A stretch of 35,494 nucleotides of DNA from IMG/VR virus record IMGVR_UViG_3300036859_000403, positions 1 through 35,494 of that record. One strand, given 5' to 3'. This document shows positions 2,051-30,937 of this stretch, piece by piece. Source of the stretch: a virus. The notes below the pieces were generated by a model. That model did no database searches. It was given only the letters and a program-made list of their open reading frames with translations, and was not told the origin of the DNA. Made by a program: the position numbers and the translations under genes. Each line of letters opens with the position of its first letter. The stretch's first letter is position 1.

Positions 2051-2206
2051 GTGCGTGACATCGCTGCAGCGATCATGGAGGCCGCCGGGTTCGCGGCGAT
2101 CGCGGCCGGCGTCTGGCTGCTCGCTGGGTTCGCGGGCGCGGTCATCGTGGCTGGCGCGGCGCTGATCGTGCTCGCTGTCTACGTCGATAGGGGCGCTGAC
2201 GCGTGA
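2051..2206 (+). CDS. Small two-segment membrane protein
   Basis: A 51-residue protein starting at GTG one base after the terminase stop and ending in a GTGA overlap with the portal gene. Almost the whole chain is hydrophobic: AAGFAAIAAGVWLLAGFAGA followed directly by VIVAGAALIVLAVYV, suggesting one or two membrane helices. It is part of the packaging operon by spacing. Small membrane proteins at this position are common in actinophages but their role is unknown, and I assign none. Confidence 0.7.
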   Translation: MRDIAAAIMEAAGFAAIAAGVWLLAGFAGAVIVAGAALIVLAVYVDRGADA

Positions 2207-3786
2207 CGGTTCTCGGAGCGTTGCTGCGGCGCCCTGCTGTCCGCGCGGTCAAGGACGAGGACGTGTGGGGCCGGTGGGCGCGCGGCGACGACGCCCCCGC
2301 TGGCGTGACGCCGGCTGGTGTGCGCGTCGACCGCACGTCGGCGTTGCAACTGTCGGCGGTGTGGGCGTGCGTGTCGCTGATCTCGGAGAGCATTTCGATG
2401 CTGCCCTTGGACACGTTCTTCCGCCAGAACGGGGCGCGCCACCCGTTCCGCCCGCGGCCGGCTTGGCTGCTCGAGCCAAACCCGGATCAGGCCCGCCACC
2501 AGTGGGTGCAGCAGCAGCTGCTCTCCCTGCTGCTGGATGGGACGGCGTACGTGTTCACGGTGCGCGACGACCGGGGGGACATTCTCGAGGCGTGGAACGT
2601 GCCGTCGTGGAACGTCCGCCCGAAACGCGACCTCGGCCAGGTCGTGTACGAGGTGACCGACCCGGAGCGCGGCCCGCTCACCCTGAACCGGGCGCAGATG
2701 TTTCACGTCCCTGGGATGTCGTGGCCCGGGGAGCTGCGCGGCATGGCCCCGTTGGAGGCGGCGCGTCACATGCTCGGCGCTGGCCTCGCGGCGCAGGAGT
2801 TCGCGGAGCGCTACTACGGGCAGGGGATGCACCAGTCGGGTGTCGTGGAGGTGCCCGGCGACCTCACCCAGGAGCAGGCCAAAGACCTCAAGGGCGATTT
2901 TCAGCGGATGGCGGGCGGGCTGCGCAAGGCGCACCTGCCAGCGGTTTTGACTGGTGGCGCGCAGTGGAAGCCGTCGATCTGCACGCCGGAGCAGGCGCAG
3001 TTCCTGCAGTCGCGCGCGTTCAGCGTCTCAGAGATCGCCCGGTTCTTCCGGGTGCCGCCGCACCTGATCGGCGACATGGAGAAGTCCACCAGCTGGGGGA
3101 CGGGGATCGAGCAGCAGGGCATCGGGTTCGTGACGTACACGCTGGGCCCGTGGCTCGAGCGGCTCGAGCAGGCGTACACCCGGCACATGCTGTTATTGGG
3201 CCCGGGCTCACGGGCGTTCGCGAAGTTCAACGTCAACGGGCTGCTGCGCGGCGACTTCAAGACCCGCAACGAGGGGTACGCGATCGGCCGCAACTGGGGG
3301 TGGCTGAACGCCGACGACGTCCGGGCGCTCGAGGACATGCCGCCGTTGCCGGACGGGCAGGGCCAGGAGTACCTGGTGCCGTTGAACATGCGGCCCGCCG
3401 ACCAGCCGCCGCAGCCCCCAACACCGCCGACGCCCGAACTGTCCGATCCGGCGGACTCGTGGGAGACGCGTCAGCCGGCGCCCACGATCAACGTCGATGC
3501 GCGCACGACCGTCGAGCCGCAGACGATCAACGTCGACGCTCGCACCAACGTCGACGAGCTCGCCGCGACCGTCAAGCCACCCGACGTTCACGTCGACGCG
3601 CGCACCGAGATCGCCGAGGGCGCCGTACAGGTGCAGCCGCCCGACGTGCACGTCGACGCGCGGACCGAGATCGCGCAGGGCGCGATCGTCTCCAACACGC
3701 CCGTCCTCGTCGAGGCGCCCAAGAAGCAGACGCGGCAGGTCGAGCGCGACGCGGCAGGTCGCATCATCAGAGTGGTCGACGAATGA
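2203..3786 (+). CDS. Portal protein (HK97 family) with repeat tail
   Basis: A 527-residue portal protein, the ring through which DNA enters and leaves the capsid. Typical HK97-portal features are SAVWACVSLISESIS near residue 50, the WNVPSW region, a PLEAARHM segment, and SVSEIARFFRVPPHLIGD followed by an EQQGIGFVTYTLGPW segment. The last 110 residues differ: a proline-rich linker, then four VDART copies, two of them in near-identical 20-residue units with the sequence HVDARTEIA. This repeat tail is not part of the core portal fold. The gene starts at GTG in a 4-base overlap with the upstream small membrane gene. Confidence 0.95.
   Translation: MTVLGALLRRPAVRAVKDEDVWGRWARGDDAPAGVTPAGVRVDRTSALQLSAVWACVSLISESISMLPLDTFFRQNGARHPFRPRPAWLLEPNPDQARHQWVQQQLLSLLLDGTAYVFTVRDDRGDILEAWNVPSWNVRPKRDLGQVVYEVTDPERGPLTLNRAQMFHVPGMSWPGELRGMAPLEAARHMLGAGLAAQEFAERYYGQGMHQSGVVEVPGDLTQEQAKDLKGDFQRMAGGLRKAHLPAVLTGGAQWKPSICTPEQAQFLQSRAFSVSEIARFFRVPPHLIGDMEKSTSWGTGIEQQGIGFVTYTLGPWLERLEQAYTRHMLLLGPGSRAFAKFNVNGLLRGDFKTRNEGYAIGRNWGWLNADDVRALEDMPPLPDGQGQEYLVPLNMRPADQPPQPPTPPTPELSDPADSWETRQPAPTINVDARTTVEPQTINVDARTNVDELAATVKPPDVHVDARTEIAEGAVQVQPPDVHVDARTEIAQGAIVSNTPVLVEAPKKQTRQVERDAAGRIIRVVDE
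3478..3710 (+). repeat. In-frame VDART repeats in the portal C terminus
   Basis: Four copies of a GTCGA[TC]GC[GT]CGCAC-like unit begin near 3487, 3529, 3589 and 3649. The last two are about 60 bp apart and share nearly all bases over about 45 bp, including the following ACCGAGATCGC. They encode (I/H)VDART repeats with short acidic or threonine-rich spacers. The regular 60-bp period suggests a recent in-frame duplication. Confidence 0.85.
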
Positions 3787-4333: not shown

Positions 4334-5548
4334 ATGGGCGTCTCCACGTTCATCGCCGACGGTACCTACACGGTGCCCACCGGGGTCACCAGCGTCACCG
4401 TCGAGTGCAGAGCGCCCGGTGGTGGCGGCGGTACCGCGACGGTCAACGGTGGTGGCGGCGCGGGCGGCGGGGCTTACTCTCGCAGCGTTCTCACCGTTGT
4501 TCCGGGCGATGCCCATCAGGTGAACGTGCCTGCGGGCGGCGCAGTCGCAACGGACGGAGGCAACGCTGTTTTTCGCAATGCCGCGAATACGGCCGACCTG
4601 GTGCGCGCGGCGGGCGGCAAGAAGGGCGTCAATGGTGCTGCGGGTGGACACGGAGCTGGCGGTCTCGGCGGGGCGACCGCCGATGGATTGGGTGACGTCA
4701 AGTTCGCAGGCGGCAACGGAGGCGGCCCGGCTGCTGGTGTGAGCGCCAACGGCGGCGGCGGCGGCGGCGGCGCGGGTGATGCCAACGCGGGTGGCACCGG
4801 GGGCGAAAGCACCGCGGGCGGAGCGGGCGGAGCCGGAGGGGTGGCCGGCGGCGGCGCGGGCGGCAACGGCTCAACTGCTGGGGTTGGCGCGGGCACGGGA
4901 ACTGCCCCCGGCGGCGGCGGCGGCGGCGCTTCGACGGTCTTCCCGGCCGCAGCGGGCGGTGCCGGCCAGGTGGTGGTTACTTTCACCCACGCTGATGTGT
5001 CCAAGACCACGGCGCTGAGCCTCGCCGGTTCGGTCAAGAAGGGCGTCTCTCTCGGCGCCAAGACGGCCTCCCTGGTCCTGACCGCCACGCGTCAGGCGCT
5101 GAACATCGGCATCAAGCGCACGACGGCCCTGGCTCTGACCGGCTCCCTGGCGAACAAGGCGATCGCTCTCATCGCCAAGACCGCGACCCTGTCCCTCGCC
5201 GCCTCGATGACCCGCCAGGTCACAGCGTTTCGCTCGTTCACCACCGCCCTGACGCTCACGGGAATTCTCGCCGGGAAGGCCCTGGAGGCCGCACGCTCGT
5301 TCACCACTGCCTTGGCGCCGTCGGCCTCGGGCCGGGTTGATATGGCGTTCACCGTGCTCAACCGGATCGTCGGCGGAGGCGGCCCCAGCGAGACGATCAT
5401 CCAAACGCGGTACGTCGGCGGCTCCTACTACCCCTACCCGCTCAACAAGCTGGCGCGCCGCAAGCGCCCGCCGGACCCGCCCCCACCACCACCGATCACG
5501 AAGCCGGGGCCACCCGACGACGACGACGACGACCTGCTGTTGACGTAG
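4334..5548 (+). CDS. Glycine-rich repeat protein, probable fibre or decoration
   Basis: A 404-residue protein in three parts. Residues 1-40 form a beta-type start (FIADGTYTVPTGVTSVTVE) seen at the head of glycine-rich domains in phage tail proteins. Residues about 30-215 are very glycine-rich, with runs of GGGGG. Residues about 220-345 hold repeats of the kind KTTALSLAGS and FTTALTLTG, roughly every 17-20 residues. The C terminus has YYPYPLNKLARR, a run of prolines and six aspartates before LLLT. It probably forms an extended fibre or capsid decoration; function is inferred. It is not a mycobacterial PGRS protein, as its neighbours are all phage genes. Confidence 0.6.
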   Translation: MGVSTFIADGTYTVPTGVTSVTVECRAPGGGGGTATVNGGGGAGGGAYSRSVLTVVPGDAHQVNVPAGGAVATDGGNAVFRNAANTADLVRAAGGKKGVNGAAGGHGAGGLGGATADGLGDVKFAGGNGGGPAAGVSANGGGGGGGAGDANAGGTGGESTAGGAGGAGGVAGGGAGGNGSTAGVGAGTGTAPGGGGGGASTVFPAAAGGAGQVVVTFTHADVSKTTALSLAGSVKKGVSLGAKTASLVLTATRQALNIGIKRTTALALTGSLANKAIALIAKTATLSLAASMTRQVTAFRSFTTALTLTGILAGKALEAARSFTTALAPSASGRVDMAFTVLNRIVGGGGPSETIIQTRYVGGSYYPYPLNKLARRKRPPDPPPPPPITKPGPPDDDDDDLLLT

Positions 5549-5557
5549 GAGACCCGA

Positions 5558-6277
5558 ATGCCCGACCTGCCGAAAGACAACCTGTTCCGCTCCGCACCCG
5601 CGTTCGAGCTGCGCGCCGCCGAAGCCGACGATGGCGGCGGGATGCCGACCATGGTCATCAACTTCGCGCGGTTCAACGAATGGGTGGAGATCGACTCGTT
5701 CTGGGAGGGCAACTTCCTCGAGCAGTTCGCGCCCGGCTCGTTCAAGAAGACGTTTCGCGAGCAGCGCGACAGCATCCGGCCGATCTTCCAGCACGGCCGC
5801 GACCCGGTCGCAGGCGACAAGCCACTCGGGCCGATCAACGACCTGCGTGAGCAACCCGACGGGGCGTGGGCTGACGTGCGGCTGCTCGACGCCGATTACG
5901 TCCGCCAGATCGTCCCGGGCCTCGAGGCTGGCGTGTACGGCGCGTCGTTCGCGTTCCAGGTCGTCCGCGAGGACGTCAACCTGGAGCCCAAGAAGTCCGA
6001 CGACAACCCGGGCGGGCTGCCGGAGCGCACCGTGAAAGAGGTGCGGCTGCGCGAGTTCGGGCCGGTCACGTTTCCCGCGTACCCGTCGACGACTGCGGGC
6101 GTGCGGTCGCTGACCGACGAGTTTCTCGCCGGGCAAGACCCGGCCAAGCGGCGCGCGCTCGCCGAGTGGCGCGCCAACCAGACTTCCGACGAGCCAGAGG
6201 AGACGCCGGCCACCACGGCCACTTCGCCTCTCACGCTCGCGAAGCTCCGCCTGGAGATGTACGCCAGGCGGAGATGA
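5558..6277 (+). CDS. Prohead protease (HK97-type, peptidase U35)
   Basis: A 239-residue maturation protease that cleaves capsid precursors inside the prohead. The family's catalytic pair is visible: His79 in FQHGRDP and Ser130 in YGASFAF, with a downstream RLREFGPVTFPAYPST strand typical of the family. It precedes the major capsid gene, the normal order. Length matches the family (about 200-250 residues). An acidic, threonine-rich tail follows the protease fold. Confidence 0.93.
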   Translation: MPDLPKDNLFRSAPAFELRAAEADDGGGMPTMVINFARFNEWVEIDSFWEGNFLEQFAPGSFKKTFREQRDSIRPIFQHGRDPVAGDKPLGPINDLREQPDGAWADVRLLDADYVRQIVPGLEAGVYGASFAFQVVREDVNLEPKKSDDNPGGLPERTVKEVRLREFGPVTFPAYPSTTAGVRSLTDEFLAGQDPAKRRALAEWRANQTSDEPEETPATTATSPLTLAKLRLEMYARRR

Positions 6278-6337: not shown

Positions 6338-7591
6338 ATGCATGAGCTCCTCAAGAAGCTCATGGACCAGCGCGCCCGCGCGTTCGAGGCCATGAAGGCC
6401 ATGATCGACCGGGCCGGCGACGACGACACCCAGTGGTCCGCCGAGGACCAGCAGGAGTTCGAGCGGATCGGCACCGACCTCGACGGCCTCGACGAGCGGA
6501 TCGGCCAGCTCAGCGACCGGATCGAACGGGAGAACAAGGCGACCGGGGAGCGCGCCCGCGTGGAGCGGATCATCCGCCCCGAGGAGCCCGTCCGTGGCGA
6601 CACGGAGACGCTGGATGACCGGGTGCTCGCATGGGCGCGCGGCCAGGGATCGAAGGCGATCGAGGTTCCGCTCACCGGGCTGCGTGTCTCGCGTGACAGC
6701 GGCGGGGCGTGGGAGGTGCGCGACCTGACCGTCGGCAGCGCCGCGGCGGGTGGCGACACCGTCCCCGAGTCGTTCCGGCGCTCGCTGTATGAGCACCTGA
6801 TCGAGAACAGCGCGATCCGTCAGACGCGGGCGGAGATCATCACGACCGCGTCCGGCGAGGACCTGATCCTGCCCAAGACGACCGCTCACCCGGCCGCCGG
6901 CACGATCGTCTCCGAAGGAGCCGCGATCGGCGAGAGTGACCCGACGTTCGGGCAGGGCACCCTGCAGGCGTTCAAGTACGCCGAGCTCATCCAGGTCTCG
7001 ACGGAGCTGATCACCGACACCGGCGTCGACCTCCTGGGCTACCTGGCCCGGGCGTTCGGCCGGGCGCTCGGCAACGGGTCGGGGGCGGACTTCGTCACCG
7101 GCAGCGGGTCGAGCAAGCCCCGCGGCGTCATCACCGCCGGGTCGCTGATGGTCACCGGCGGCACCGGCGTGTCCGGCGAAGCGACCGGCGACAACCTCAT
7201 CGACCTGTTCTTCACGGTCAAGGAGCCCTACGCCGTCAACGGCGAGTGGCTGCTCAGGCGGGCGACGCTCGGGAAGGTCCGCAAGCTCAAGGACGCCAAC
7301 AACCAGTACCTGTGGCAGCCCGGGCTGGCCGGGGACGTCCAGAGCACCATCCTGGGCGCGCCGTACGTCCTCGACCCCAACGTGCCCGCGGCGGGCACGG
7401 CGGCGACGTCGATCGCGTTCGGCGACTTCTCGGCGTACAAGATCCGCGACGTCGGGTCGCTGCGGTTCGAGCGCTCCGACGACTTCGCGTTCAACGCGGA
7501 CCTCGTCACGTTCCGGGCGATCCTGCGGACCGACGGCGATCTGCTCGACGAGACGGGCGCGATCGGGACGTACAAGGGCGGCTCGAGCTAG
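6338..7591 (+). CDS. Major capsid protein (HK97 fold)
   Basis: A 417-residue HK97-type capsid protein. Residues 1-75 are a charged coiled-coil (DRAGDDDTQW, IGQLSDRIERENK) that acts as the scaffold-like delta domain and is normally removed by the protease. The mature fold is shown by SLYEHLIENSAIRQTRAEI, FKYAELIQVSTELITD, the GNGSGADFVTGSGSSKPRG loop and a C-terminal FGDFSAYKIRDVGSLRFERS segment. The ATG follows CCAGGAGG with good spacing. A strong hairpin lies just downstream. Confidence 0.96.
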   Translation: MHELLKKLMDQRARAFEAMKAMIDRAGDDDTQWSAEDQQEFERIGTDLDGLDERIGQLSDRIERENKATGERARVERIIRPEEPVRGDTETLDDRVLAWARGQGSKAIEVPLTGLRVSRDSGGAWEVRDLTVGSAAAGGDTVPESFRRSLYEHLIENSAIRQTRAEIITTASGEDLILPKTTAHPAAGTIVSEGAAIGESDPTFGQGTLQAFKYAELIQVSTELITDTGVDLLGYLARAFGRALGNGSGADFVTGSGSSKPRGVITAGSLMVTGGTGVSGEATGDNLIDLFFTVKEPYAVNGEWLLRRATLGKVRKLKDANNQYLWQPGLAGDVQSTILGAPYVLDPNVPAAGTAATSIAFGDFSAYKIRDVGSLRFERSDDFAFNADLVTFRAILRTDGDLLDETGAIGTYKGGSS

Positions 7592-7610
7592 CAGTCTCGG
7601 TCGCAAAGGG

Positions 7611-7644
7611 GGCCCGGCGAGGTCGCGAGGGGCTTCGCCGGGCC
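7611..7644 (+). terminator. Strong hairpin after the capsid gene
   Basis: GGCCCGGCGA at 7611-7620 pairs perfectly with TCGCCGGGCC at 7635-7644 across a 14-base loop. It lies 20 bases after the capsid stop and 33 bases before the next start. No T-run follows, so it may be a partial terminator, an attenuator, or a 3' stabiliser that raises capsid mRNA over downstream messages. Confidence 0.6.
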
Positions 7645-7677
7645 TCTGCCCTCATCCCCCTCACGAGAGGACTGCCT

Positions 7678-7890
7678 GTGCCCGTACATCGCATTCGACA
7701 CACCAGCAGTGATCCTGTCCCCGACCTGGCGGCTGCGGTGCAGGCGGTCGAGAGCGCCGGTGAGAGCATCGTGCAGGTCGTGCCGTGGGCGAACGGCTGG
7801 CTGCTCGTCACGTCCGCCAGCGAGCTCGCCGCTGCCCGCAAACCTGCGTCACAGGCCAACCTTGAGCGGCGGGCCCGTAAGGCGAGCTGA
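7678..7890 (+). CDS. Hypothetical 70-residue protein coupled to glycosyltransferase
   Basis: This protein starts at GTG after GAGAGGA at 7664-7670 and ends in a one-base TGATG overlap with the glycosyltransferase/methyltransferase gene, so the two are translationally coupled. It has a compact alpha/beta pattern (VPDLAAAVQAVESAG, then IVQVVPWANGWLLVTS) and a basic tail. I do not recognise the family. Its coupling suggests it may assist the downstream enzyme or be a small head protein. Confidence 0.65.
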   Translation: MPVHRIRHTSSDPVPDLAAAVQAVESAGESIVQVVPWANGWLLVTSASELAAARKPASQANLERRARKAS

Positions 7891-9698
7891 TGAAGATCCT
7901 GTGGCACAGCAATGCCAGCTGGGCGAACACCGGCTACGGCAACCAGACCAGCCTTTTCACGCCCCGCATCCGCGACCTCGGCCACGACGTCGCCCTGTCG
8001 GCGTACTGGGGGCTGCAGGGCGCCCCGATCGACTGGGACGGCATGAAGGTCTACCCGTCCGACGACCGGTGGGGGAACCGGCTGCTGCCCGCCTACGCCC
8101 GCGACCACGGCCAAGGCAAGCAGGACGACTGCGTGATCATCACGCTCATGGACGTGTGGGTGCTCACCTCGCCGACGCTCGCCGAGCTGCGCATGGCGTC
8201 GTGGGTCCCGGTCGACCACGACCCGGCGCCGCCGCGCGTCATCGACTTCTTCGAGCGCACCGGCGCCCGGCCGATCGCCATGTCGCGGTTCGGCGAGGAG
8301 AAGCTGCGCGAACAAAGGCTCGACCCGCTTTACGTGCCGCACGGCGTCGACACGAGGGTGCTGCGACCACGACGCACCAGCGGACAGGTCCGGGAGCTGA
8401 TGGGGATCCCTGGGGACGCGTTCGTCGTCGGGATGGTGGCGGCGAACAAGGGGCTCAACCCGCCGCGCAAGGCGTTCCCCCAGGTGTTCCAGGCGTTCGC
8501 GGAGCTACGCCGCGAACATGATGACGCGTACCTGTACCTGCACACCGAGCTTTCGGGCGCTCACGACGGCATGAACCTCGGCGCCCTAGCGGCGGCGTGC
8601 GGTATCCCGACGGACCGGATCAAGACCACGCCGCCGTGGCGGTATGAGATGGGGGTCAGCCAGGAGGACCTGTCGCACCTGTACAGCGCGATGGACGTCC
8701 TCGCGAACCCGTCGTACGGTGAGGGGTTCGGCGTGCCGATCGTGGAGGCGTTGGCGTGCGGCGTCCCGGTGATCGTCACGGACTGCTCGGCGATGACCGA
8801 GCTGTGCGGCGCCGGGTGGCTCGTCGACGGCGACCGGTGGTACGACGCGACGCAGGGCGCGTTCTTCAAATGCCCATCGGTCGCGGACGTCCTGGACGCG
8901 ATGCGCCAGGCGTATGACAGGCGGGGCGACGAGACGCTGCGTGAGAAGGCGCGTGCGTTCGCGCTCGCCTACGACGCCGACGTCGTCACCGAGATCTACT
9001 GGAAGCCGGCGCTCGAGGCGCTCGAGGAGCAGACGCCGCGGCCCGCGAGAAGGATGCTGGTCGACGAGCCGTGGCTGACCAGGTACCTGCCCCAGCGTGG
9101 CCGCGTCGCCCTGGACGTCGGCGCGAACGTCGGCAACGTGACCGAGCATCTGCTCGATGGGTTCGACGAGGTGCACGCGTTCGAGCCGCACCCCGAGGCG
9201 TTCCGTCAACTGGAGGAGCGGGTCGGCAAGCGCGCGGTCACGCACGACGTGGCGGTCGGCGCGCACGTCGGCGACCTGACGCTCAAGCTCTACGACGCGC
9301 ACGAGCACACCAGCGCGTTCGATGACGACGAGCTCGACACGCTCACCCGCGGCGAGCCGCGCGGCGAGATCACCGTCCCGCTCGTGACGCTCGACTCGCT
9401 CCGCTTCGACCAGAAACCCGTCGACTTCCTGAAGGTGGACACGGAGGGCTATGAGTACAGCGTCCTGCTGGGCGCCGGCGCGACGCTGGCGACGAACATG
9501 CCGACCGTGCTCGTCGAGGTCCACCGGGCGCACAACGGCGCGCTGTGCGAGGAGCTGCTGCGCGAGCATGGCTACGACGTCGAGAAGATCCCGCATCCGC
9601 ACGCGGGGGTGCCCGACGGCCACCACTGGCTGCACGCCACGGCGCCCGTCGCGGCCGAGGCGCAGGCCGAGATGGTCGGAGCGCTGGCCAATGAATGA
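7890..9698 (+). CDS. Glycosyltransferase-FkbM methyltransferase fusion
   Basis: A 602-residue two-domain enzyme. Residues 1 to about 385 look like a GT4-type (GT-B fold) glycosyltransferase: SNASWANTGYGNQT at the start, VPHGVDT near 150, and the family signature EGFGVPIVEALACGVPVI near 278-295. Residues about 395-590 are an FkbM-type methyltransferase with the SAM-binding LDVGANVGNVTE near 406, HAFEPHPEAF, and FLKVDTEGYE near 513. Such enzymes add a sugar and then O-methylate it. Sitting between capsid and connector genes, it probably modifies a virion protein glycan; the target is inferred. The next gene starts in an 8-base overlap. Confidence 0.9.
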   Translation: MKILWHSNASWANTGYGNQTSLFTPRIRDLGHDVALSAYWGLQGAPIDWDGMKVYPSDDRWGNRLLPAYARDHGQGKQDDCVIITLMDVWVLTSPTLAELRMASWVPVDHDPAPPRVIDFFERTGARPIAMSRFGEEKLREQRLDPLYVPHGVDTRVLRPRRTSGQVRELMGIPGDAFVVGMVAANKGLNPPRKAFPQVFQAFAELRREHDDAYLYLHTELSGAHDGMNLGALAAACGIPTDRIKTTPPWRYEMGVSQEDLSHLYSAMDVLANPSYGEGFGVPIVEALACGVPVIVTDCSAMTELCGAGWLVDGDRWYDATQGAFFKCPSVADVLDAMRQAYDRRGDETLREKARAFALAYDADVVTEIYWKPALEALEEQTPRPARRMLVDEPWLTRYLPQRGRVALDVGANVGNVTEHLLDGFDEVHAFEPHPEAFRQLEERVGKRAVTHDVAVGAHVGDLTLKLYDAHEHTSAFDDDELDTLTRGEPRGEITVPLVTLDSLRFDQKPVDFLKVDTEGYEYSVLLGAGATLATNMPTVLVEVHRAHNGALCEELLREHGYDVEKIPHPHAGVPDGHHWLHATAPVAAEAQAEMVGALANE

Positions 9699-10302
9699 GT
9701 ACGCGAACGGCGCAGAACTGAAGGCGACGCTCGAGCTGGTCGGCGAGACGTTCGCCGACCCGGACATCACGCTCGCGCTGACCGCGGCGTCACGGGCGAT
9801 CGACAACGTCTGCGACCGCCGGTTCTACGCGGACGCCGACGCCACCCAGGTGCGCTACTACTCGCCCGACGACGCGCGGATCCTGCGCATCGACGACCTC
9901 GTGACGCTCACGACCCTGGTCACGGACCCGGGCGGCGACGGCACCTTCGAGGACGCGTGGACGCTCAACACCGATTTCGTGCTCGAGCCGCTCAACGCCG
10001 CCGCCAACGCCCATCCGTACACGACGATCGCGGTGCACCCCAACGGCTCGTTCCGGCTGCCCTGCTCGTTTCCGCGGTCGGTGAAGCTGACCGGCAAGTT
10101 CGGGTGGTCCGCTGTCCCGGAGCCGATCAAGGAGGCGACGATGGTGCTGGCGTCGAAGTTGATGCGCCGCGCCCGCGAAGCGCCGTTCGGCGTCGTGTCC
10201 GTCGGGCTGGAGGCGGGCGCGGCGATGCGGATCGCGCGCAACGACCCGGACGTGCTCATGCTCGTCGGGCCGTACCGGCGTTACCCGGTCGCCGTCGCCT
10301 AG
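9691..10302 (+). CDS. Head-tail connector protein (adaptor)
   Basis: A 203-residue protein of the gp6/gp15-like connector type that sits under the portal. Its helical N terminus (ALTAASRAIDNVCDRRFY) followed by the beta-rich DDLVTLTTLVTDPGGDG, VKLTGKFGWSAVPEPIKEA and a helix with LASKLMRRAREAPFG is the usual pattern of these adaptors. Two ATGs are near the start; 9691 gives MNEYANGAELKA. It overlaps the fusion enzyme gene by 8 bases. Position after head genes and before tail genes fits. Confidence 0.85.
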   Translation: MNEYANGAELKATLELVGETFADPDITLALTAASRAIDNVCDRRFYADADATQVRYYSPDDARILRIDDLVTLTTLVTDPGGDGTFEDAWTLNTDFVLEPLNAAANAHPYTTIAVHPNGSFRLPCSFPRSVKLTGKFGWSAVPEPIKEATMVLASKLMRRAREAPFGVVSVGLEAGAAMRIARNDPDVLMLVGPYRRYPVAVA

Positions 10303-12254: not shown

Positions 12255-15200
12255 ATCGCCTCGAGAAAGCTCGTCGTTGAGATTGTCGGCGACTCGTCGT
12301 CGCTTGAGCGGGCGTTGCGGCGGGGCAGCAGTGCGAGCGGCCAGTTCGCGGCGCGCACCCGCGTGGCGAGCAGCGATCTCGACAGGCTCGGGATGTCGAT
12401 GCAGCGCTCATCCGGCCACGCTCTGCGGTGGGCCAGCGCGCTCGTCGGCGCTGGTTCTATCACCTACGGCCTGAAGGCGGCGGTGTCCGCCGGCGTGAGG
12501 TTCAACGCCTCGATGGAGTCAAACCGGGTCGCGCTCAAGCAGTTCACCGGCAGCGCCGCGTCCGCCGACAAGCTACTCGCCCAGCTCTACCAGACGGCCC
12601 GCAAGACGCCGTTCCAGTTCCAGGACATCACGGCAGCGGCACGCCAGTTCATGGCGTTCGGGTTCACCACCAAGCAGACGGCCGTGGCGTTGAAGGGCGT
12701 TGGTGACGCGGTCGCTGGGCTCGGTGGAGGGCAGGACAAGATCGACCGCATCACCCTGGCCTTCGGGCAGATCCAGTCCAAGGGCAAGGTGATGGGCCAG
12801 GAGCTGCTGCAGCTCACCGAGGCCGGCATCCCCGCCTACAGGATCCTCGCCGAGCAGCTGCACCTCACGGGGGATCAGGTCAAGCGGATCGGCGAGCTTG
12901 GCATCCCGGCGAACGTGGCGATCGGGGCGCTGCTGGCCGGGATGAACCAGCGCTTCAAGGGCGCCGCCCAGGAGCAGTCAAAGACGCTGGTGGGGGTGTG
13001 GTCGACGCTGAAGGACGACGCGTCGCAGGCGTTCGGGGCGATCACCTCGTCGGCGATGCCGGGACTCAAGAGTCTGGTGACGGCAGTCGACAGTGCGGCC
13101 GCTGATATCACGCGGGTGTGGCAGCGCAAGGATCTGACGCCGGAGGAGAAGTTCCGCGCGAGCTGGCAGGCGATCCAGACGGATATCGGCCCGATGGTCG
13201 CCGTGGTCGGTCAGAAGATCAAGGACGCCCATCTCGGCGAGAAGTTGTCCAACGCGTTCGAGGCGGCCGCCCCGAAGATCATCAACGCGCTGGCGAAGGC
13301 GGCGGTCAAGGCGGCTGGCGCGTTCGCACGCGCATGGCTGGACGCCGGCCCGTGGGGAAAGATCTTCGTTGCCAGCATCATCCTGAAGAAGCTCGGGGCG
13401 TTTAGCGCCGCGGGCAGCGCAGCCGCCAGCCTGTTCGTCGGCGGGATGGGCAAGCTGGGAGGGGCCCTGAAGCGAATGTTCGCGGTGGCTGGCGCCGAGG
13501 CGGGCGTGGCCGCAGGCACCGCGGCGGCAGGCACCGAGGGGCTGGTCAGCGCGGCCAACATGACCCGCTTCCAGCGGGCCGGACGCATCTTCGGCCGGGT
13601 GCTGGGTGGAGCAGCGGTAACCGCCCTCGTCTACCAGCTCACCAAGGACAGTACGCGCAGCACGCTGGAAAACGTCCTTCACACGATCATCCCCGTCCAG
13701 CCGGGCGGCAGCACGGCGGGCTTGCGTCCCTACCGGGGCGGCGCGCTGCCGCCCGGGGCGCATGTGGGTTCCGGCGCGACACCGGTCTACGGTCCCGCCT
13801 ATCCAGGCGGGCGTATGACGACGTCCTACCTGCGTGCGGCCGCTCGGCGGGCGGCGCAGCAGGCGGGCATCGACCCTGACATCTTCATCCGCCAGATCAA
13901 CCAGGAGTCCGGGTTCAATCCGAGCGCCGTCTCGTCGGCGGGAGCGGTTGGGATCGCCCAGTTCATGCCCGGCACCGCGCGCGGCCTCGGGGTCAATCCG
14001 CGCCAGCCCGTCCCGTCGCTGTTCGCCGCGGCGAGGCTCATGGCGCAGTACGTGCGCCGGTTCGGCTCGTACCGCAACGCGCTGGTCGCCTACAACGCCG
14101 GTCCCGGCGCCGTGGGCGGGCGGCTGCCCGCAAAGACGCAGGGCTATCTCGCCTCCATTCTCCCCGGTGGCGGCGGGGGTGACGGCGGGTCGATCGCGGA
14201 CGCGTTCGGCGGTGGCGGGTTCAACGTCAGCGCGGCGGGCAAGGTCACCGAGGGCATCAACCCGTTCACCGGCGAGATGGAACGCCACTCCGTCCAGGGC
14301 TGGAAGCGCATCCGCATGCGCTACCAGCAGCAGTCGATCGGCAAGCGCCGCCAGGCGGAGCGTCGGCGTAAGGCGGAGCGCGCGTTTCAGCGGCCGTTCG
14401 AGGCGTTCGAGACCGAGTACGCGGTGATCGACACCGACATCGCCGAGGCGCAGCGGACGGTGGGCACGGCGGACGACACTCGCGTGCTGGGTAAGGCGAA
14501 GGCCGCGCTCGACAGGCGCATCAACGCCTTGAGGACGCAGCTGAAGTCCAAGCTCTCAGGCAAGCACCGCAAGCAGGTCGCCGAAGCGCTCAAGGACCTC
14601 CTCGGCAAGTCCTCCGAGGTGGCCGAGAGCGTCTACCAGATCGCGATGGCGAGCTTCGACTTTCGGATGTCGGGGATCGACCTAGCGATCGCCAAGGCCC
14701 AGGCGACGGTAGGCAAGACGGACGACATCGCCGCGTATACGCGTCAACGCGAGGCGATCACCAGCCAGATCGCGAAGCTGCGCAAGCTGCTGCGCGGTTC
14801 GCTGTCACGGGAGCGCCGAGCGGAGCTGCGACGTCAGCTGGCGGGACTGATCACGCAGGGGTCGGAGCTCGACCAGACGCTCGCGGATCTGGCGTCATCG
14901 GCGTCCGCCGGGTCCGAGGTCGGCACGACCACGTACGGCACCAAGCAGATGGGGATGCTGAGCGGCCAGTTCGGCCGGCTCGGCACCTCGCTATTGCAGG
15001 CGAAGGTGAACACGCCGAAGGACACCTCCGACGACCTCGCGATCCTGCAACAACAGCTGGGGGTCGCCACAAGCCTCTACGACCTTGCGCAGGCCGCTGG
15101 CCGCGACGATCTGATCGAACAGTGGGGGAACATCGTGTTGGGGTTGCGCGACGACATCAAGACGCTGTCGGAGGCCACCGAAGACAACACCCAAGCCCTC

Positions 15201-15383
15201 CAAGCCCAGCTCGACGCGCTCAAGGAGCAAAACGAGAACCTGCGGCGGGCGGCAGCCACGGCGGCTGCGAGCGCATCGTCGTTCGCCGGGTCGCTCGCCG
15301 ACATGGTCTCCGGCCAGATCGTCGGGTTCGGAGTGAATCCTCGAGCGGCGACGGCGGGGTCCGGCGCCCTGAGTAGATACTGA
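12255..15383 (+). CDS. Tape measure protein with lytic transglycosylase domain
   Basis: A 1042-residue protein that sets tail length. The conserved N terminus (KLVVEIVGDSSSLERAL) is in frame only from an ATC at 12255, preceded by AGGAGG at 12241-12246 with 8-base spacing and a stop directly before; the first standard start, TTG 12315, would remove it. Residues about 85-235 form the tape measure domain (TPFQFQDITAAARQF, GKVMGQELLQLTEAGIPAYR). Residues about 520-630 are an SLT-type transglycosylase with the catalytic Glu in QINQESGFNP, then GIAQFMPGTA and LVAYNAGPGAV. Long charged helices and a coiled coil follow. The enzyme domain probably opens peptidoglycan on DNA entry. Confidence 0.93.
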   Translation: MASRKLVVEIVGDSSSLERALRRGSSASGQFAARTRVASSDLDRLGMSMQRSSGHALRWASALVGAGSITYGLKAAVSAGVRFNASMESNRVALKQFTGSAASADKLLAQLYQTARKTPFQFQDITAAARQFMAFGFTTKQTAVALKGVGDAVAGLGGGQDKIDRITLAFGQIQSKGKVMGQELLQLTEAGIPAYRILAEQLHLTGDQVKRIGELGIPANVAIGALLAGMNQRFKGAAQEQSKTLVGVWSTLKDDASQAFGAITSSAMPGLKSLVTAVDSAAADITRVWQRKDLTPEEKFRASWQAIQTDIGPMVAVVGQKIKDAHLGEKLSNAFEAAAPKIINALAKAAVKAAGAFARAWLDAGPWGKIFVASIILKKLGAFSAAGSAAASLFVGGMGKLGGALKRMFAVAGAEAGVAAGTAAAGTEGLVSAANMTRFQRAGRIFGRVLGGAAVTALVYQLTKDSTRSTLENVLHTIIPVQPGGSTAGLRPYRGGALPPGAHVGSGATPVYGPAYPGGRMTTSYLRAAARRAAQQAGIDPDIFIRQINQESGFNPSAVSSAGAVGIAQFMPGTARGLGVNPRQPVPSLFAAARLMAQYVRRFGSYRNALVAYNAGPGAVGGRLPAKTQGYLASILPGGGGGDGGSIADAFGGGGFNVSAAGKVTEGINPFTGEMERHSVQGWKRIRMRYQQQSIGKRRQAERRRKAERAFQRPFEAFETEYAVIDTDIAEAQRTVGTADDTRVLGKAKAALDRRINALRTQLKSKLSGKHRKQVAEALKDLLGKSSEVAESVYQIAMASFDFRMSGIDLAIAKAQATVGKTDDIAAYTRQREAITSQIAKLRKLLRGSLSRERRAELRRQLAGLITQGSELDQTLADLASSASAGSEVGTTTYGTKQMGMLSGQFGRLGTSLLQAKVNTPKDTSDDLAILQQQLGVATSLYDLAQAAGRDDLIEQWGNIVLGLRDDIKTLSEATEDNTQALQAQLDALKEQNENLRRAAATAAASASSFAGSLADMVSGQIVGFGVNPRAATAGSGALSRY

Positions 15384-17374
15384 TGGCGGCTGAGAGTCTC
15401 ACCCTCGACGGCGTCGAGCTCCACAGCGGCGACTACGCGATCCGCGAGGACTCGCTGCGGATGGACCCCCCAGCCAAGCGCTACGAGTGGGTGGCGGGCG
15501 CGGACGCCGACGGGTCGGCATTGGTGCGCGACCCGTTGTTCGAGAACCGGGAGATCACGTTCCGGCTCGTCGTCCGCGGCCAAACCACCAAGGACGGCGC
15601 GTTGGCGAAGGTCGGGGTGATCGTCGACAAGCTCGAGGAGGCCGAGCGCCAGCCCGACGGCATCGACCTCGTGTGGGCGCCGGCGGACGGCACGAAGACG
15701 GTCACGTTCAAGGTTCTTTCCGGCGAGGTGACGGCGCTGCCGATGGCGCGGTCCGGCGACGGGGCGGGGTACGTCCTCAACAAGCCGATGTTCGACGTCC
15801 GGCTGACGTGCAAGCCGTTCGGCTACGGCGCCGAGGTGACCGGAGCGACGGCGACGTCAAGCAACCCTGTCGTCACGGTCACCCAGGCCAGCGTGACCGG
15901 GGACGTGCCCGCGGAGGGCCGCCTGGTCGTGACCGACATGGCGACCCAGTCGCGGCGGCATGTGGAGTGGGGGTTGCAGTACCGCTACTACGACGCGGCG
16001 ACGGCGCTGCAGATCAACAAGGCGGACATGACGGCGCTCGGCGCGACGAGCGGCACGGTCGCCGGGTCGTACAACGCGAACGTCTGGAGCCTGACCTGCA
16101 GCTCTGCGCCGACGGCGATGGTGTCCACCGGCAACCAGTCGCACATCGGCACGTTCCGCGTAAAGGCGCGCGTCTACGGGCTCGCCGGCCACCGCGTCCG
16201 GCTCAACTGGCAGGAGGGAGACGGCTCGTTCCGGCCGAACCCGTGGGTGACCCTGCCCAAGTTCAACGTCTGGTCGGAGATCGACCTGGGCATCGTCACC
16301 GTTCCCGAGAAGGTCGCGGGCACGCAGCGCTGGACGGGTCGCATCGACGCCTACAGCACCACGCCCGGCGACACGATTCACCTCGACTACCTCGTGTTGG
16401 TCCCGGCCGGCGAGGGGTACGGCCTCGCCCGCGGGACCTACTCCGATATCCCGGGTTCGCTCGTCGCCCGCGACGAGTTCAACAACGCCACCGCCGGAGT
16501 CAACCTCGACGCGCGCGCCGCGCCGCTCGGCGGCAGCTGGGTGACATCCGGCTCCACGACCGACCTGCAGACCTACGACACGGCCGACGACATGGAGGTC
16601 GTGCAACGCTCGACGACCGGCGACACCGGCTCCGGGCGCTTCGCGATCCTCGGGTCGACGAGCTACACCGACGTCGACGTCAGCGTGAAGGCGCGGTCGG
16701 TCACCTTCCCGGCCAACCACTCGCACGTCGCGTCGGCGATCGCGCGGTGGGTGGACTCCTCAAACCGCATCGAGGCGCGCCTGTCGGCCGGCGACACCGT
16801 CCAGACGTTCCAGCTACGCAAGGTCGTAGCCGGCGTCGCGACGATGCTCGACTACCACGCCTGGTCGCCGGTGTACGAGAACGGCTGGTACAAGCTGCGC
16901 CTCTTGTGCTTCGCCTCCGGGCGGCTGATCGCCGAGCTGCGCGACAACGACGACGGTCTGCTCCTCCAGTTGCAGGCGCAGGCAAGCGAGGCGGCGACCG
17001 GCGGCAGCCTGCAGACCGGCAAGCCTGGGTTCGGCGACTTCAACTCGGGCTCGGCGGGCGGCCGGCGCGAGTACGACGAGTTCAAGGTCGCCACCCCGCC
17101 ATCGGAGCCCGTCGTCGTCTACTCGGGGCGCAAAGCCGAGTTCCGCCACGACGACCAGCTCCGCCAGGACAGCACCGGCACCTACTACGGAGCGATCCCG
17201 TCGTACCGCGGCTCGCGGTTCCTGCTCCCCCCGGCCGGCGATGAGAGCCGGACAAGCCGCGTCCTCATCAAGGCGCGCCGCAACGACAACGACGTGGCGG
17301 ACGACACCACCGTGACGGACAGCACGAAGGTCGAGCTATTTTGGAAGCCACGGTATCTCGTCGTGGCGCGCTAG
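15383..17374 (+). CDS. Distal tail / minor tail protein with lectin-like domain
   Basis: A 663-residue protein starting in a one-base TGATG overlap with the tape measure. Residues 1-155 resemble a distal-tail domain (SLTLDGVELHSGDYAIREDS, LFENREITFRLVVRG, VRLTCKPFGYG). Residues about 370-570 look like a concanavalin/LamG-type beta sandwich (DEFNNATAG, GSTSYTDVDVSVKARSVTF, YENGWYKLRLLCFASG, REYDEFKVA), which in tail proteins often binds sugars. It is likely at the tail tip and may contact the host surface. The stop shares CTAG with the stop of a reverse gene. Confidence 0.8.
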   Translation: MAAESLTLDGVELHSGDYAIREDSLRMDPPAKRYEWVAGADADGSALVRDPLFENREITFRLVVRGQTTKDGALAKVGVIVDKLEEAERQPDGIDLVWAPADGTKTVTFKVLSGEVTALPMARSGDGAGYVLNKPMFDVRLTCKPFGYGAEVTGATATSSNPVVTVTQASVTGDVPAEGRLVVTDMATQSRRHVEWGLQYRYYDAATALQINKADMTALGATSGTVAGSYNANVWSLTCSSAPTAMVSTGNQSHIGTFRVKARVYGLAGHRVRLNWQEGDGSFRPNPWVTLPKFNVWSEIDLGIVTVPEKVAGTQRWTGRIDAYSTTPGDTIHLDYLVLVPAGEGYGLARGTYSDIPGSLVARDEFNNATAGVNLDARAAPLGGSWVTSGSTTDLQTYDTADDMEVVQRSTTGDTGSGRFAILGSTSYTDVDVSVKARSVTFPANHSHVASAIARWVDSSNRIEARLSAGDTVQTFQLRKVVAGVATMLDYHAWSPVYENGWYKLRLLCFASGRLIAELRDNDDGLLLQLQAQASEAATGGSLQTGKPGFGDFNSGSAGGRREYDEFKVATPPSEPVVVYSGRKAEFRHDDQLRQDSTGTYYGAIPSYRGSRFLLPPAGDESRTSRVLIKARRNDNDVADDTTVTDSTKVELFWKPRYLVVAR

Positions 17375-17790: not shown

Positions 17791-17957
17791 GGCTCCCTCT
17801 CGTTGTCGACGTCTTCGGTGGGGAGCTTGAATCCGACGCCGCCTGCCAGCAGCACGACCGCGAGCTGGTTGAGCGAGACGCCCTGCTCGCGGGCGCGTCG
17901 CACGAGCTCGTCGTGGAGAGCTGGCGGCATCCGGACTAGAACCTTTCCCTTCCCCAT
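17787..17957 (-). CDS. Ribbon-helix-helix DNA-binding protein (reverse)
   Basis: A 56-residue protein with a strand VLVRMPPALHDELVRRAREQ followed by VSLNQLAVVLLAGGVGF, the ribbon-helix-helix pattern of HicB/Arc-type proteins. Such dimers bind palindromic DNA and usually repress their own operon. The start is about five bases from the predicted transcription start, nearly leaderless. It overlaps the following membrane protein gene by four bases. The fold is well supported; a toxin is not evident, so an antitoxin role is not claimed. Confidence 0.75.
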   Translation of the reverse strand: MGKGKVLVRMPPALHDELVRRAREQGVSLNQLAVVLLAGGVGFKLPTEDVDNEREP

Positions 17958-17968
17958 CAGGGAGCATG

Positions 17969-17996
17969 ATGATAGCGCATATGCTAGCGGGGTCAA
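17969..17996 (-). promoter_or_regulatory. Promoter of the reverse RHH/membrane operon
   Basis: On the reverse strand, TTGACC (plus 17991-17996) is followed after 16 bases by TATCAT (plus 17969-17974), close to the vegetative consensus. The spacer contains the palindrome GCATATGC (17977-17984), a likely operator for the adjacent ribbon-helix-helix protein. The promoter lies just before the forward gene starting at 18001. Confidence 0.6.
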
Positions 17997-18000
17997 GCGG

Positions 18001-19641
18001 ATGAGCCAAAAGCCGCCCCTCGAGCTCTCCGTCGTTATCACCGCCCCCGACGGCACCGAGCACCACTGGGCGTCCCACAAGGCCGCCCAGGACCGCCCGT
18101 CCGGCGTCCAGTTCTCGACCGCGTCGATGGACGGGTTCAAGACGGCGAGCCTCACCCTGCCTCGCCGCATCGACCTTGACTGGCCCGACCTCAACCTGTT
18201 CGACGACGTCGCCCTCATCGGCGCGGACGGCAGCGTCGCCTATGAGGGGCGGGTGAGCGCGCAACCGCGCCAGCTCGACGCCAGCCACAGCATCACCGTC
18301 CAGGCCGTCGGGTGGATGGCCCACGCCAAGGACCGCAAGCTCACTGAGATCTACGTCGACCGGGACTTCGGCCACTGGGGGCCGGTCAGCGTCCAGTACC
18401 GGTTCAACAACGGGGCGAGCTTCGCGCAAACCGACCCGACCGTCCTGCAGGACGCCGATACGGGTCAGCCGGCGCTTGAGCAGGGCGTCGTGGGTGACTG
18501 GGACGCGACGGGCCAGCCGGACGCCGAGGCGGTGTATGACGCGCGGGGGATCGCGATCGGGTCGCTGTACTACGCGTGGAAGAAGTCCGGCAGCGTCGAC
18601 AACACGCTGGCGGGTTGGAAGTGGAACACGGTCCTCGCCCCGGACGACACGCTCGCCACCGGCGACCTGACCGCGAACCTGCGGGCGGCGGGGCCGGGGA
18701 CGGGAACCCTGACCGCGACCACATCCTCGCGGAAGTACGCGGCGACCCAGTTTTACTGGGATGGCGGCGTATCGACGGCGAAGGGCGTCCGGTACAGCAT
18801 CTTCTGGACCGTCCTCGCCGTCTACGGCAACCATGGGTTGACGAAGCGCGGGACGAACAGCGCGACCGAGGCGCAGGGGTTCTACGCCAGCGACGTGATC
18901 AAGAACATCGCTGGCCGGTTCTGCCCCAAGCTCAACACGGCCGGCGTGCAGGACACCACGTACGCGATTCCGCAGCTCGCGTTCATCGACCCCGTCCACC
19001 CGTACGACGCGTTCCTGGCGTGCAACGCCTACCACCTGTGGCGGCTCGCGGTGTGGGAGAACAAGACCCTCACGTACGGGCCGGTCGACCTGTCGGACTA
19101 CGACTGGCAGGTGCGGCTGTCGGACCCGGGGGTGACCGTCGAACTGCAGGGCGACGATACGTCGAGCCTCGCGAACGGGATCGTCGTCACCTTCCAGGAC
19201 GTCAACAAGGGCGCCCAGCGCCGGCTGACGCCGGACGACCACAGCGAGCTCGCCGATGACGCGGTGGAGAACCCCGCGAACCGGGCGGGCCTGCAGGTGT
19301 GGACGGAGATCCCGTTGAGCGCGCCGACCACTGAGGACGCGGCGTTGCAGATCGGCCGGATCGCGCTCGCCGAGTTCAACCAGCCCAAGGCGCCCGGGAC
19401 GATCACCGTCCGCGGCCACATCCGCGACCGCGCCGGGCATTGGCAGCCCGTTTGGCGAGTGCGAGCCGACGACACCATCGCGATCGTCGACCACCCCAAC
19501 GACCGGCCGCGGCTCGTGCAGGAGACGTCGTACAGCCACGACAGCCAGACGATGCAGATCGCGGTCGACGGCTCCTTTAAACGCCTCGACGCGGTGCTCG
19601 ACCGCTTAGGAACGGCGTTGAGCGCGGCGAACCTCGCGTGA
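18001..19641 (+). CDS. Minor tail protein, tail-tip hub-like
   Basis: A 546-residue protein that begins MSQKPPLELSVVITAPDGTE. Residues 30-115 (VQFSTASMDGFKTASLTLPR, ADGSVAYEGRVSAQPRQLD, ITVQAVGWMAHAKD) resemble the N-terminal hub domain of siphovirus tail-associated proteins. The middle has beta-rich segments and the end has IAIVDHPNDRPRLVQETSYS. Its place after the distal-tail gene fits a baseplate hub or central tip. No peptidase motif is evident. No strong ribosome site precedes the ATG, perhaps because the reverse cassette separates it from the upstream tail gene. Confidence 0.75.
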   Translation: MSQKPPLELSVVITAPDGTEHHWASHKAAQDRPSGVQFSTASMDGFKTASLTLPRRIDLDWPDLNLFDDVALIGADGSVAYEGRVSAQPRQLDASHSITVQAVGWMAHAKDRKLTEIYVDRDFGHWGPVSVQYRFNNGASFAQTDPTVLQDADTGQPALEQGVVGDWDATGQPDAEAVYDARGIAIGSLYYAWKKSGSVDNTLAGWKWNTVLAPDDTLATGDLTANLRAAGPGTGTLTATTSSRKYAATQFYWDGGVSTAKGVRYSIFWTVLAVYGNHGLTKRGTNSATEAQGFYASDVIKNIAGRFCPKLNTAGVQDTTYAIPQLAFIDPVHPYDAFLACNAYHLWRLAVWENKTLTYGPVDLSDYDWQVRLSDPGVTVELQGDDTSSLANGIVVTFQDVNKGAQRRLTPDDHSELADDAVENPANRAGLQVWTEIPLSAPTTEDAALQIGRIALAEFNQPKAPGTITVRGHIRDRAGHWQPVWRVRADDTIAIVDHPNDRPRLVQETSYSHDSQTMQIAVDGSFKRLDAVLDRLGTALSAANLA

Positions 19642-20118: not shown

Positions 20119-20490
20119 ATGGCGCAGCGGCACTGCCAGGCGTGTGGCCGTGCCCTGGCGCCCAGTGCTCATCACGCACGCAAATACTGTGAGCATGGCT
20201 GCGATGCCCGCCGATGCCCCGACTGTGGGGCGCCGACCTTCAAGCGCTGGGTGCGCTGTAGACGTTGTGCGGGCAGACATCGCAGCGGCGAATCGCCGGA
20301 TCTGAGCCCGCGTGAGCGAGCCGTTCTTCGGGGCGTAGCGATGGGCCTGACCAATCGCCAGATCGGCGGGCAGCTCTATATCAGCCACAAGACCGTAGAG
20401 ATCCATCTCTATCGGGCGTGCCGGAAGCTGGAGTGCCACGGGCGGGCCGCTGCCGTCGCCGAGGCGATGCGTCGAGGGCTGATCGAGTGA
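20119..20490 (+). CDS. Zinc-ribbon plus LuxR-type HTH protein
   Basis: A 123-residue protein with eight cysteines in the first 52 residues (CQACGRAL, YCEHGC, RRCPDCGAPT, RCRRC), suggesting one or two zinc ribbons. Residues about 61-123 are a GerE/LuxR-type helix-turn-helix: LSPRERAVLRGVAMGLTNRQ, IGGQLYISHKTVEIHLYRAC, then AVAEAMRRGLI. It has no receiver domain, so it is not a classical two-component regulator. It sits directly before the endolysin and may control late or lysis genes; the target is unknown. The start directly follows the upstream stop. Confidence 0.85.
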   Translation: MAQRHCQACGRALAPSAHHARKYCEHGCDARRCPDCGAPTFKRWVRCRRCAGRHRSGESPDLSPRERAVLRGVAMGLTNRQIGGQLYISHKTVEIHLYRACRKLECHGRAAAVAEAMRRGLIE

Positions 20491-23152: not shown

Positions 23153-23392
23153 GTGGCAGTGATTACAACGCAGTCAGTGCATATAGGGAACCGCCTTCGA
23201 GAGCTCCGCCTGGCCCACGGCCTCAAGCTCTACGAGGTCTCAGCTCTCGTCGGCCGCAGCGAAACGGTCATCGGTCGCTACGAGAGGGGGCAGACACGGG
23301 TACCTGATGACGCCAAGCTGGCGCTCGCGCGCCACTACGGCGTGAGCGTCGATCACCTGATGGGCTGGGACCGCGAGGAGATCGTTGCGTGA
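23153..23392 (+). CDS. Cro-like XRE-family regulator
   Basis: A 79-residue protein that is essentially one XRE helix-turn-helix domain: IGNRLRELRLAHGLKLYEVS, ALVGRSETVIGRYERGQTRV, then DAKLALARHYGVSVDHLMGW. It is transcribed away from the reverse repressor and starts the forward early operon, matching a Cro role. The GTG at 23153 lacks a clear ribosome site, so leaderless translation is possible; a second GTG at 23159 is an alternative. It overlaps the methyltransferase gene by GTGA. Confidence 0.85.
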   Translation: MAVITTQSVHIGNRLRELRLAHGLKLYEVSALVGRSETVIGRYERGQTRVPDDAKLALARHYGVSVDHLMGWDREEIVA

Positions 23393-24354
23393 GCGCGGCG
23401 GCGCTCGTTCCTGCCGCTGAGGCGCGCTCGGTCGTTGCGCTCGACGAGGCGAGGGCCGCCATCGCCGTCGCGCGGCAGACTGGCGACGCGGGGGCGCTTC
23501 GCGAGTGGCGTGACCGCGCCGCCGCCGTCCAGCACTACGCCCGGATGCGCGACGACGGCAGGCACGCGGCGAACGAGGCGGGGGAAATCAAGGTTCGCGC
23601 TGAACGGGCGCTGGGGCAGCTCGACGCCGAAGGACGGCAGCACGGCGGGAGTCGCAAGCAAGATGGGGGTGCCCCCATCTTGACCGTAGAGGGCCACACT
23701 CGCGCCGCGTGGCGCAAGCTGGGCGCGCTCGACGAACCCGAGTTCGAAGCGCTCGTCGAGCGGGCGCGCGAGGACCAGAACGCGGGTGTGAGCACCGCGA
23801 GTCTCGTGCGGCTCGTGCGCGCCGCGGCCGTCGCTCCACCCCCGGTCACGCTCGCGCCGCTGCCCGAAGGGGCCTTCCGGGTCATCGCGGCCGATCCGCC
23901 GTGGCAGTACGACAACAAGGCGACGCGTGGCGCCGCCGAGGACCACTACTCGACTATGACGATCGAGGAACTCTGCGCCCTCGACGTCATCGACCGGGCC
24001 GCCGACGACGCGCACCTTTATCTGTGGACGACGAATGGGTTCCTGCGCGAATCGTTCGACGTCCTCGACGCCTGGGGGTTCTCCTACAAGACGTGCCTGA
24101 CGTGGGTGAAGCCGCAGATGGGCCTGGGGAACTACTTCCGCTCGTCCACCGAGCACGTCCTGTTCGGTGTCCGGGGGAAGCTGGCGACCGCCGACCGGGC
24201 GCTGATGAACTGGTTCCAGGCACCGCGCGGACGCCACTCTAAGAAGCCCGACAGCTTCTACGACCTCGTGGAACGCGCGAGCCCGGGACCGTACCTCGAA
24301 CTGTTCGCGCGCCGTCGCAGGTTCGGCTGGGAGCACTGGGGCGTCGAGGCGTGA
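23389..24354 (+). CDS. MT-A70-type DNA adenine methyltransferase
   Basis: A 321-residue protein in two parts. Residues 1-110 are a helical domain (YARMRDDGRHAANEAGEIKV, AERALGQLDAEGR) often fused to phage MT-A70 enzymes. Residues about 160-320 are an MT-A70-type methyltransferase, with the catalytic DPPW motif in VIAADPPWQYDNKA near 164-177, DAHLYLWTTNGFL, TCLTWVKPQMGLGNYFRSST, and PGPYLELFARRRRFGWEHWG. It probably methylates adenine in phage DNA to resist restriction, or in regulation. It is coupled to the next nuclease gene by GTGA. Confidence 0.92.
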   Translation: MSAAALVPAAEARSVVALDEARAAIAVARQTGDAGALREWRDRAAAVQHYARMRDDGRHAANEAGEIKVRAERALGQLDAEGRQHGGSRKQDGGAPILTVEGHTRAAWRKLGALDEPEFEALVERAREDQNAGVSTASLVRLVRAAAVAPPPVTLAPLPEGAFRVIAADPPWQYDNKATRGAAEDHYSTMTIEELCALDVIDRAADDAHLYLWTTNGFLRESFDVLDAWGFSYKTCLTWVKPQMGLGNYFRSSTEHVLFGVRGKLATADRALMNWFQAPRGRHSKKPDSFYDLVERASPGPYLELFARRRRFGWEHWGVEA

Positions 24355-30752: not shown

Positions 30753-30937
30753 CTGACCCTAGGCGGGATCAGCAGAAGACAACGGACGCGGAGCTTCGGG
30801 AGGCCGAGGACGCCGTGGAGGAACTGTGCGAGGACGCGCTGCGGGCGTTGACGGGTCGGAACTTCATCAAGGCGGAGTCGCTACTGAGCGACGCGATCAC
30901 GCAGCTTCGCTTCCTCAATAGGGCTAGCTATGAGTGA
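30749..30937 (+). CDS. Hypothetical 62-residue protein
   Basis: Starts at GTG in a 4-base overlap with the preceding gene and overlaps the methyltransferase by eight bases. Acidic and helical (DAELREAEDAVEELCEDALR, IKAESLLSDAITQLRFLNRA). The heptad-like pattern suggests a coiled-coil or helical bundle. No family recognised. Confidence 0.55.
   Translation: MTDPRRDQQKTTDAELREAEDAVEELCEDALRALTGRNFIKAESLLSDAITQLRFLNRASYE

Follow-up and report, generated by a model that had tools for sequence, protein, structure and literature searches.

A predicted glycosyltransferase-FkbM methyltransferase fusion beside the capsid gene of an environmental tailed phage, a candidate for virion glycan modification

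Analysis of a viral DNA stretch of 35,494 nucleotides (IMG/VR record IMGVR_UViG_3300036859_000403; the entire stretch is hereafter called the window) revealed that a single plus-strand gene at 7890-9698, placed between the major capsid and head-tail adaptor genes, joins a GT4-type glycosyltransferase to an FkbM-family methyltransferase. We lean towards the view that its product, predicted to be a soluble bifunctional enzyme, attaches a sugar to a protein of the virion (probably to the capsid) and then O-methylates that sugar. The GT4 domain would take its sugar from a nucleotide-sugar supplied by the host and transfer it to an acceptor on the phage virion, the likeliest being the major capsid protein itself or a glycan already begun there, and the FkbM domain would use S-adenosylmethionine to O-methylate the added sugar, yielding a capped glycan. 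What we infer for the fusion covers its catalysis, the acceptor and the donor sugar, the sequence of the two steps and any benefit, be it shielding or altered adsorption. What is new here is the fused, minimal form of a widespread but little described capsid-adjacent sugar cassette; the fusion would represent the smallest version of an accessory glycosylation cassette lying between the capsid and adaptor genes.

The fusion gene and its place among the head genes

The 602-residue reading frame comprises a GT4 domain (residues 1-385, 7890-9044) and an FkbM-family methyltransferase domain (residues 386-602, 9045-9695), whose O-methyltransferase part proper spans residues 389-565. Profile searches assigned the first half to Glycos_transf_1 (PF00534, E 3.5e-14, above the Pfam cutoff) and to phrog_2170 of the PHROG profiles (E 1.3e-39, residues 1-367). 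When aligned with 32 relatives, the residues E278/E286 of the EX7E motif, N186 and R193-K194 were invariant, as were G15 and H110, so that the domain carries both the EX7E motif and the donor-phosphate basic residues R193-K194 by which GT4 enzymes are recognised. The second half matched PF05050 over residues 409-563 (E 5.1e-22, 79.3 bits against a gathering cutoff of 22.7) and retains the conserved DVGANVG, FEP and KVDTEG motifs together with the SAM-binding residues of the FkbM family. An AlphaFold model of the fusion, computed from an input alignment of 32 phage sequences, was confident for the GT-B domain (pLDDT mostly >90) and less so for the methyltransferase, which reached a mean pLDDT of 87 when modelled separately. 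The model of the GT half (residues 1-382) resembled MshA, BshA, sucrose-phosphate synthase and a chlorovirus glycosyltransferase with Z-scores of 33-34, the solved-structure matches being of low identity (13-19%). The predicted likeness to MshA and BshA would thus speak for the fold alone; both solved enzymes act on small molecules. For the methyltransferase half, the model adopts the class I methyltransferase fold, and the top Foldseek match was the solved FkbM protein 2py6, which a second aligner ranked level with other class I methyltransferases. Both halves have a codon usage resembling that of the structural genes. Reading frame, profile matches, intact signatures and predicted folds therefore agree on the GT4-like and FkbM-like fusion that a preliminary description of this DNA had proposed, and its placement beside the capsid gene was likewise borne out.

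The fusion is embedded in a virion operon with the order terL (508-2049), portal (2203-3786), glycine-rich protein, prohead protease (5558-6277, plus strand; PF04586, E 7.5e-17), HK97-type major capsid protein (6338-7591, plus strand; PF05065, E 1.4e-61, and phrog_10), hairpin, 70-residue protein, fusion, head-tail adaptor (9691-10302, plus strand; phrog_442, E 1.4e-14), tail terminator, major tail protein and tape measure. As TerL matched mainly actinobacteriophages, the host is likely actinobacterial. The strong hairpin noted earlier 3' of the capsid gene held up: it has a 16-bp stem (7609-7646, plus strand), and the 90-nt stretch folds with -48 kcal/mol (z = -2.6), a stability reached by 0 of 200 shuffles. 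Position 7611, previously given as the start of the feature, falls in this hairpin region and marks no gene boundary. Function as an intrinsic terminator was rejected, as the hairpin is followed by no T-run and no terminator-like site was scored. The small gene that follows (7678-7890, plus strand, GTG start) encodes a 70-residue protein of no assigned function, for which the Pfam search returned no accepted family and a Lyase_8_C match below cutoff. Relatives of it lie between capsid and GT4 in three contigs, L136 (69 residues, E 3e-7), L074 and L080 (both E about 1e-4). The 70-residue gene shares one base with the fusion gene (TGATG), and the fusion gene in turn runs 8 nt into the adaptor gene. 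These overlaps are compatible with translational coupling but do not prove it, although coupling had earlier been stated outright for the 70-residue gene. In L136, the gene for the 69-residue relative likewise overlaps the GT4 gene.

Several further features of the window were recorded. The glycine-rich protein (4334-5548, 404 residues, PF21722) occupies an unusual site for a fibre-like protein, between portal and prohead protease. The tape measure protein (12315-15383) resembles lysozymes/transglycosylases around residues 500-700, where several lytic tail protein PHROGs match, and the two proteins encoded past it (15383-17374, 663 residues; 17803-19641, 612 residues) had no Pfam or PHROG match and are likely tail or baseplate proteins. 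A small LuxR/GerE-type regulator is encoded at 20119-20490 (PF00196, E 1e-17), and the early region carries two different DNA methyltransferases, of MT-A70 type and phrog_67 type (23389-24354 and 30930-31742).

The GT4 family and its partners in other phages

No record in a collection of 50,697 phages contained the full-length fusion protein; the best matches covered the GT half alone, led by Microcystis phage Mae-JY09 (44% identity) and phiPsal1 (37%). A profile search of viral contigs, by comparison, gave at least 595 confirmed IMG/VR matches to the GT4 half. A capsid gene was present within 3 kb upstream of GT4 in 58 of the 78 contigs having enough upstream sequence, with a median gap of 466 bp; downstream, an adaptor gene followed in 30 of 57, both counts being descriptive since the sample is enriched in close relatives and includes near-duplicates. 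In L037, L039 and L040, GT4 sits near terL instead of behind a recognised capsid gene. The interval between GT4 and adaptor was occupied, depending on the contig, by FkbM, GT2, GT-B, Methyltransf_24, an NDP-sugar epimerase, a MobA-like NTP transferase or a phrog_14945 glycosyltransferase, along with genes of no assigned function. As judged from sequence, the recognisable partners thus appear to be mostly sugar or methyl enzymes, which points to a cassette between capsid and adaptor in which GT4 is constant and the second enzyme exchangeable. The closest relative of the window, L136 (capsid 70% and GT4 65% identical), encodes no FkbM protein: downstream of its GT4 gene come another GT-B gene and one resembling GT2, the latter called by eye and having no Pfam match.

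Searching viral contigs with the FkbM half alone returned a single distant relative, and a search of a genome collection yielded a phage-like contig from Gemmatimonadaceae plus one match of no relevance. A contig assigned by binning to a Gemmatimonadaceae genome (L047, JANLGX010000106.1) carries a terL-protease-capsid-GT4-Methyltransf_24-GT2 cassette and may be a phage contig or prophage, a possible host hint. In contig L021, a collagen-repeat/tail-fibre-like protein (6612-7859) fills the GT4-adaptor interval.

The cassette is optional: in four close capsid relatives (L138-L141), the capsid and adaptor genes have no GT4 between them. Across 17 non-redundant loci, GT4 divergence correlated with capsid divergence (Mantel rho 0.54, compared to 0.33 for capsid and adaptor), a correlation that could reflect physical closeness rather than function. 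A position in the virion operon would suit any late-expressed accessory gene equally well. The C-terminal GG(S/T) tail of the capsid protein, which in the window ends in IGTYKGGSS, was considered as a glycosylation site and dropped, since the same tail occurs in the L138 and L139 capsids, which lack a neighbouring GT4.

Origin of the fused form

Contig L072 encodes a separate FkbM protein of 202 residues behind its GT4 gene, the two genes overlapping by 4 nt (GTGA), and L007 shows the same split layout. The L072 protein shares 45% identity with the window half and starts at a codon that falls, in the alignment, exactly on Met389 of the fusion (ATG at 9054-9056, plus strand). This alignment suggests that the window fusion arose by joining two overlapping genes, Met389 being the probable relic of the original FkbM start codon. 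An assembly error might have joined two genes into the 602-residue frame of the window; against such an artefact, the relic start codon stands in frame within the window sequence, and fusions of the same kind are present in other contigs.

A GT4-FkbM fusion was found after the capsid gene in nine other contigs (L065, L066, L070, L071, L073, L083, L088, L089 and L127), where the FkbM part belongs to a different subfamily, 30-35% identical to the window half. Earlier trees lacking L136 and L137 did not reject a single fusion origin (AU p 0.29 and 0.16), whereas after these two contigs were added, a single clade of fused GT4s was rejected (AU p = 4.7e-6). We thus discarded a single origin; on the tree evidence, the nine-contig fusion was made independently of that in the window. 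Two members of the group, L065 (5969-8650) and the near-identical L066, extend the fusion to a triple GT4-FkbM-Methyltransf_24 protein of about 872 residues directly after the capsid gene. L014 carries a GT4-GT2 fusion, and L018 an equivalent C-terminal domain as judged by profile. Counted together, GT4 was fused twice to FkbM and once to a GT2-type domain, for which the simplest reading would be that the partner gene is often exchanged and has been repeatedly fused. Repeated fusion is a classic sign of two enzymes in one pathway, and the GT4-FkbM and GT4-GT2 fusions point to enzymes working on the same glycan. The search for the same fusion in related phages, which the preliminary description had called for, was therefore successful in that fused and split forms were recovered, yet it leaves the fusion less singular than had been implied.

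Candidate acceptors and related systems

GT4 and FkbM enzymes often work on bacterial envelope polysaccharides, which are common substrates of both. The main rival to a virion glycan is the host envelope: during infection, the enzyme would modify host surface glycans, for example a receptor sugar, blocking superinfection or re-adsorption to debris. Such a role would also fit the structure search, where WaaG, PimA and TarM are among the further fold matches of the GT4 half, and the host serotype conversion by temperate phage glycosyltransferases to which PMC12619734 refers by citation. We regard it as unlikely, given that in most relatives the gene resides amid genes for head morphogenesis, that the GT4 cassettes scanned contained no recognised flippase or polymerase partner and that no integrase was recognised among the window ORFs scanned. 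Still less probable, in our estimate, is that the target is another virion protein such as the tail tube, a tail fibre or one of the minor head proteins. In mycobacteriophages, glycans are indeed attached to the capsid as well as to the tail tube (PMC12363180, PMC12619734), and the fusion is immediately followed by adaptor and tail genes, but GT4 divergence follows that of the capsid better than that of the adaptor, and GT4 comes directly after the capsid gene in most contigs.

Two other substrates seem far more remote. If both halves acted on a small molecule, such as an MshA- or BshA-like glycoside, the protein would be an auxiliary metabolic enzyme, in keeping with MshA, BshA and sucrose-phosphate synthase being its best solved structures; we think this very improbable, as the low identity of these matches weakens the comparison and the conserved capsid linkage would be left unexplained. 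Phage glycosyltransferases can also hypermodify DNA (Pyle 2024, as cited in PMC12619734), and the two DNA methyltransferases of the window might be taken to favour glycosylation and methylation of phage DNA bases as an anti-restriction measure. However, the gene sits in the head operon, and no hydroxymethylase, hydroxymethyl-base precursor or other base-glycosylation pathway was recognised among the window ORFs scanned, so that we rejected this reading, to which we grant the smallest chance of all. What the preliminary description had envisaged, an add-and-methylate modification of the virion, is thus strengthened in its general form by the retention of GT4 beside the capsid in divergent phages, the sugar and methyl partners, the repeated fusions and the lack of a recognised DNA-sugar pathway, whereas the capsid target, the sugar and a shielding role still go beyond these data.

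Known systems offer partial parallels to the proposed virion modification. In Corndog-type phages (cluster O mycobacteriophages), the virion operon encodes an O-methyltransferase (gp35), two glycosyltransferases (gp36/gp37) and a GlcNAc-transferase (gp38), and the capsid was suspected of carrying glycan and methyl modifications (PMC4351075). Virion (capsid) glycosylation of Che8 and Corndog is reported in PMC12363180 and PMC12619734, in both by citation of Freeman 2023. Comparison with the Firecracker map showed that, as in the window, methyltransferase and glycosyltransferase are encoded together inside the head/virion structural operon; unlike the window fusion, the Corndog-type enzymes are separate genes between portal and protease. 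Profiles for GT4, FkbM, GT2 and Methyltransf_24 gave no match to Firecracker gp33-gp36 at E-values up to 10. Since the enzymes are not detectable relatives, the resemblance would be one of function, if at all, and not of descent. The chlorovirus PBCV-1 protein A064R attaches two rhamnoses to the capsid glycan, of which it O-2-methylates the terminal one (PMC9614988). It thereby joins glycosyl transfer and O-methylation in one polypeptide, as does our fusion, but biochemically demonstrated on the major capsid protein glycan where ours is predicted; moreover, A064R contains two GT domains (D1 being GT-A) and belongs to an algal virus with an N-glycan, and we liken it as a functional analogue. 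Pontimonas phage phiPsal1 (genes 010-012) presents a similar arrangement of capsid, GT4 (37% identical), methyltransferase and GT2, and neck gene, with the differences that the genes are separate and that its SAM methyltransferase is of Methyltransf_11 rather than FkbM type and encoded on the opposite strand.

More tentatively than for the window enzyme itself, we propose that many environmental tailed phages may share a capsid-linked glycotype cassette, in which GT4 would start or extend a capsid glycan and the exchangeable partner (FkbM, GT2, another methyltransferase or an epimerase) would set the final glycan, surface sugars being varied by partner swap and repeated fusion. If this holds, capsids bearing glycans that end in O-methyl sugars would be common among uncultured phages, as a modular trait and not as an oddity confined to a few mycobacteriophages; the GT4 gene could then be used as a sequence marker for capsid glycosylation. 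The fused form offers a single protein on which this can be tested.
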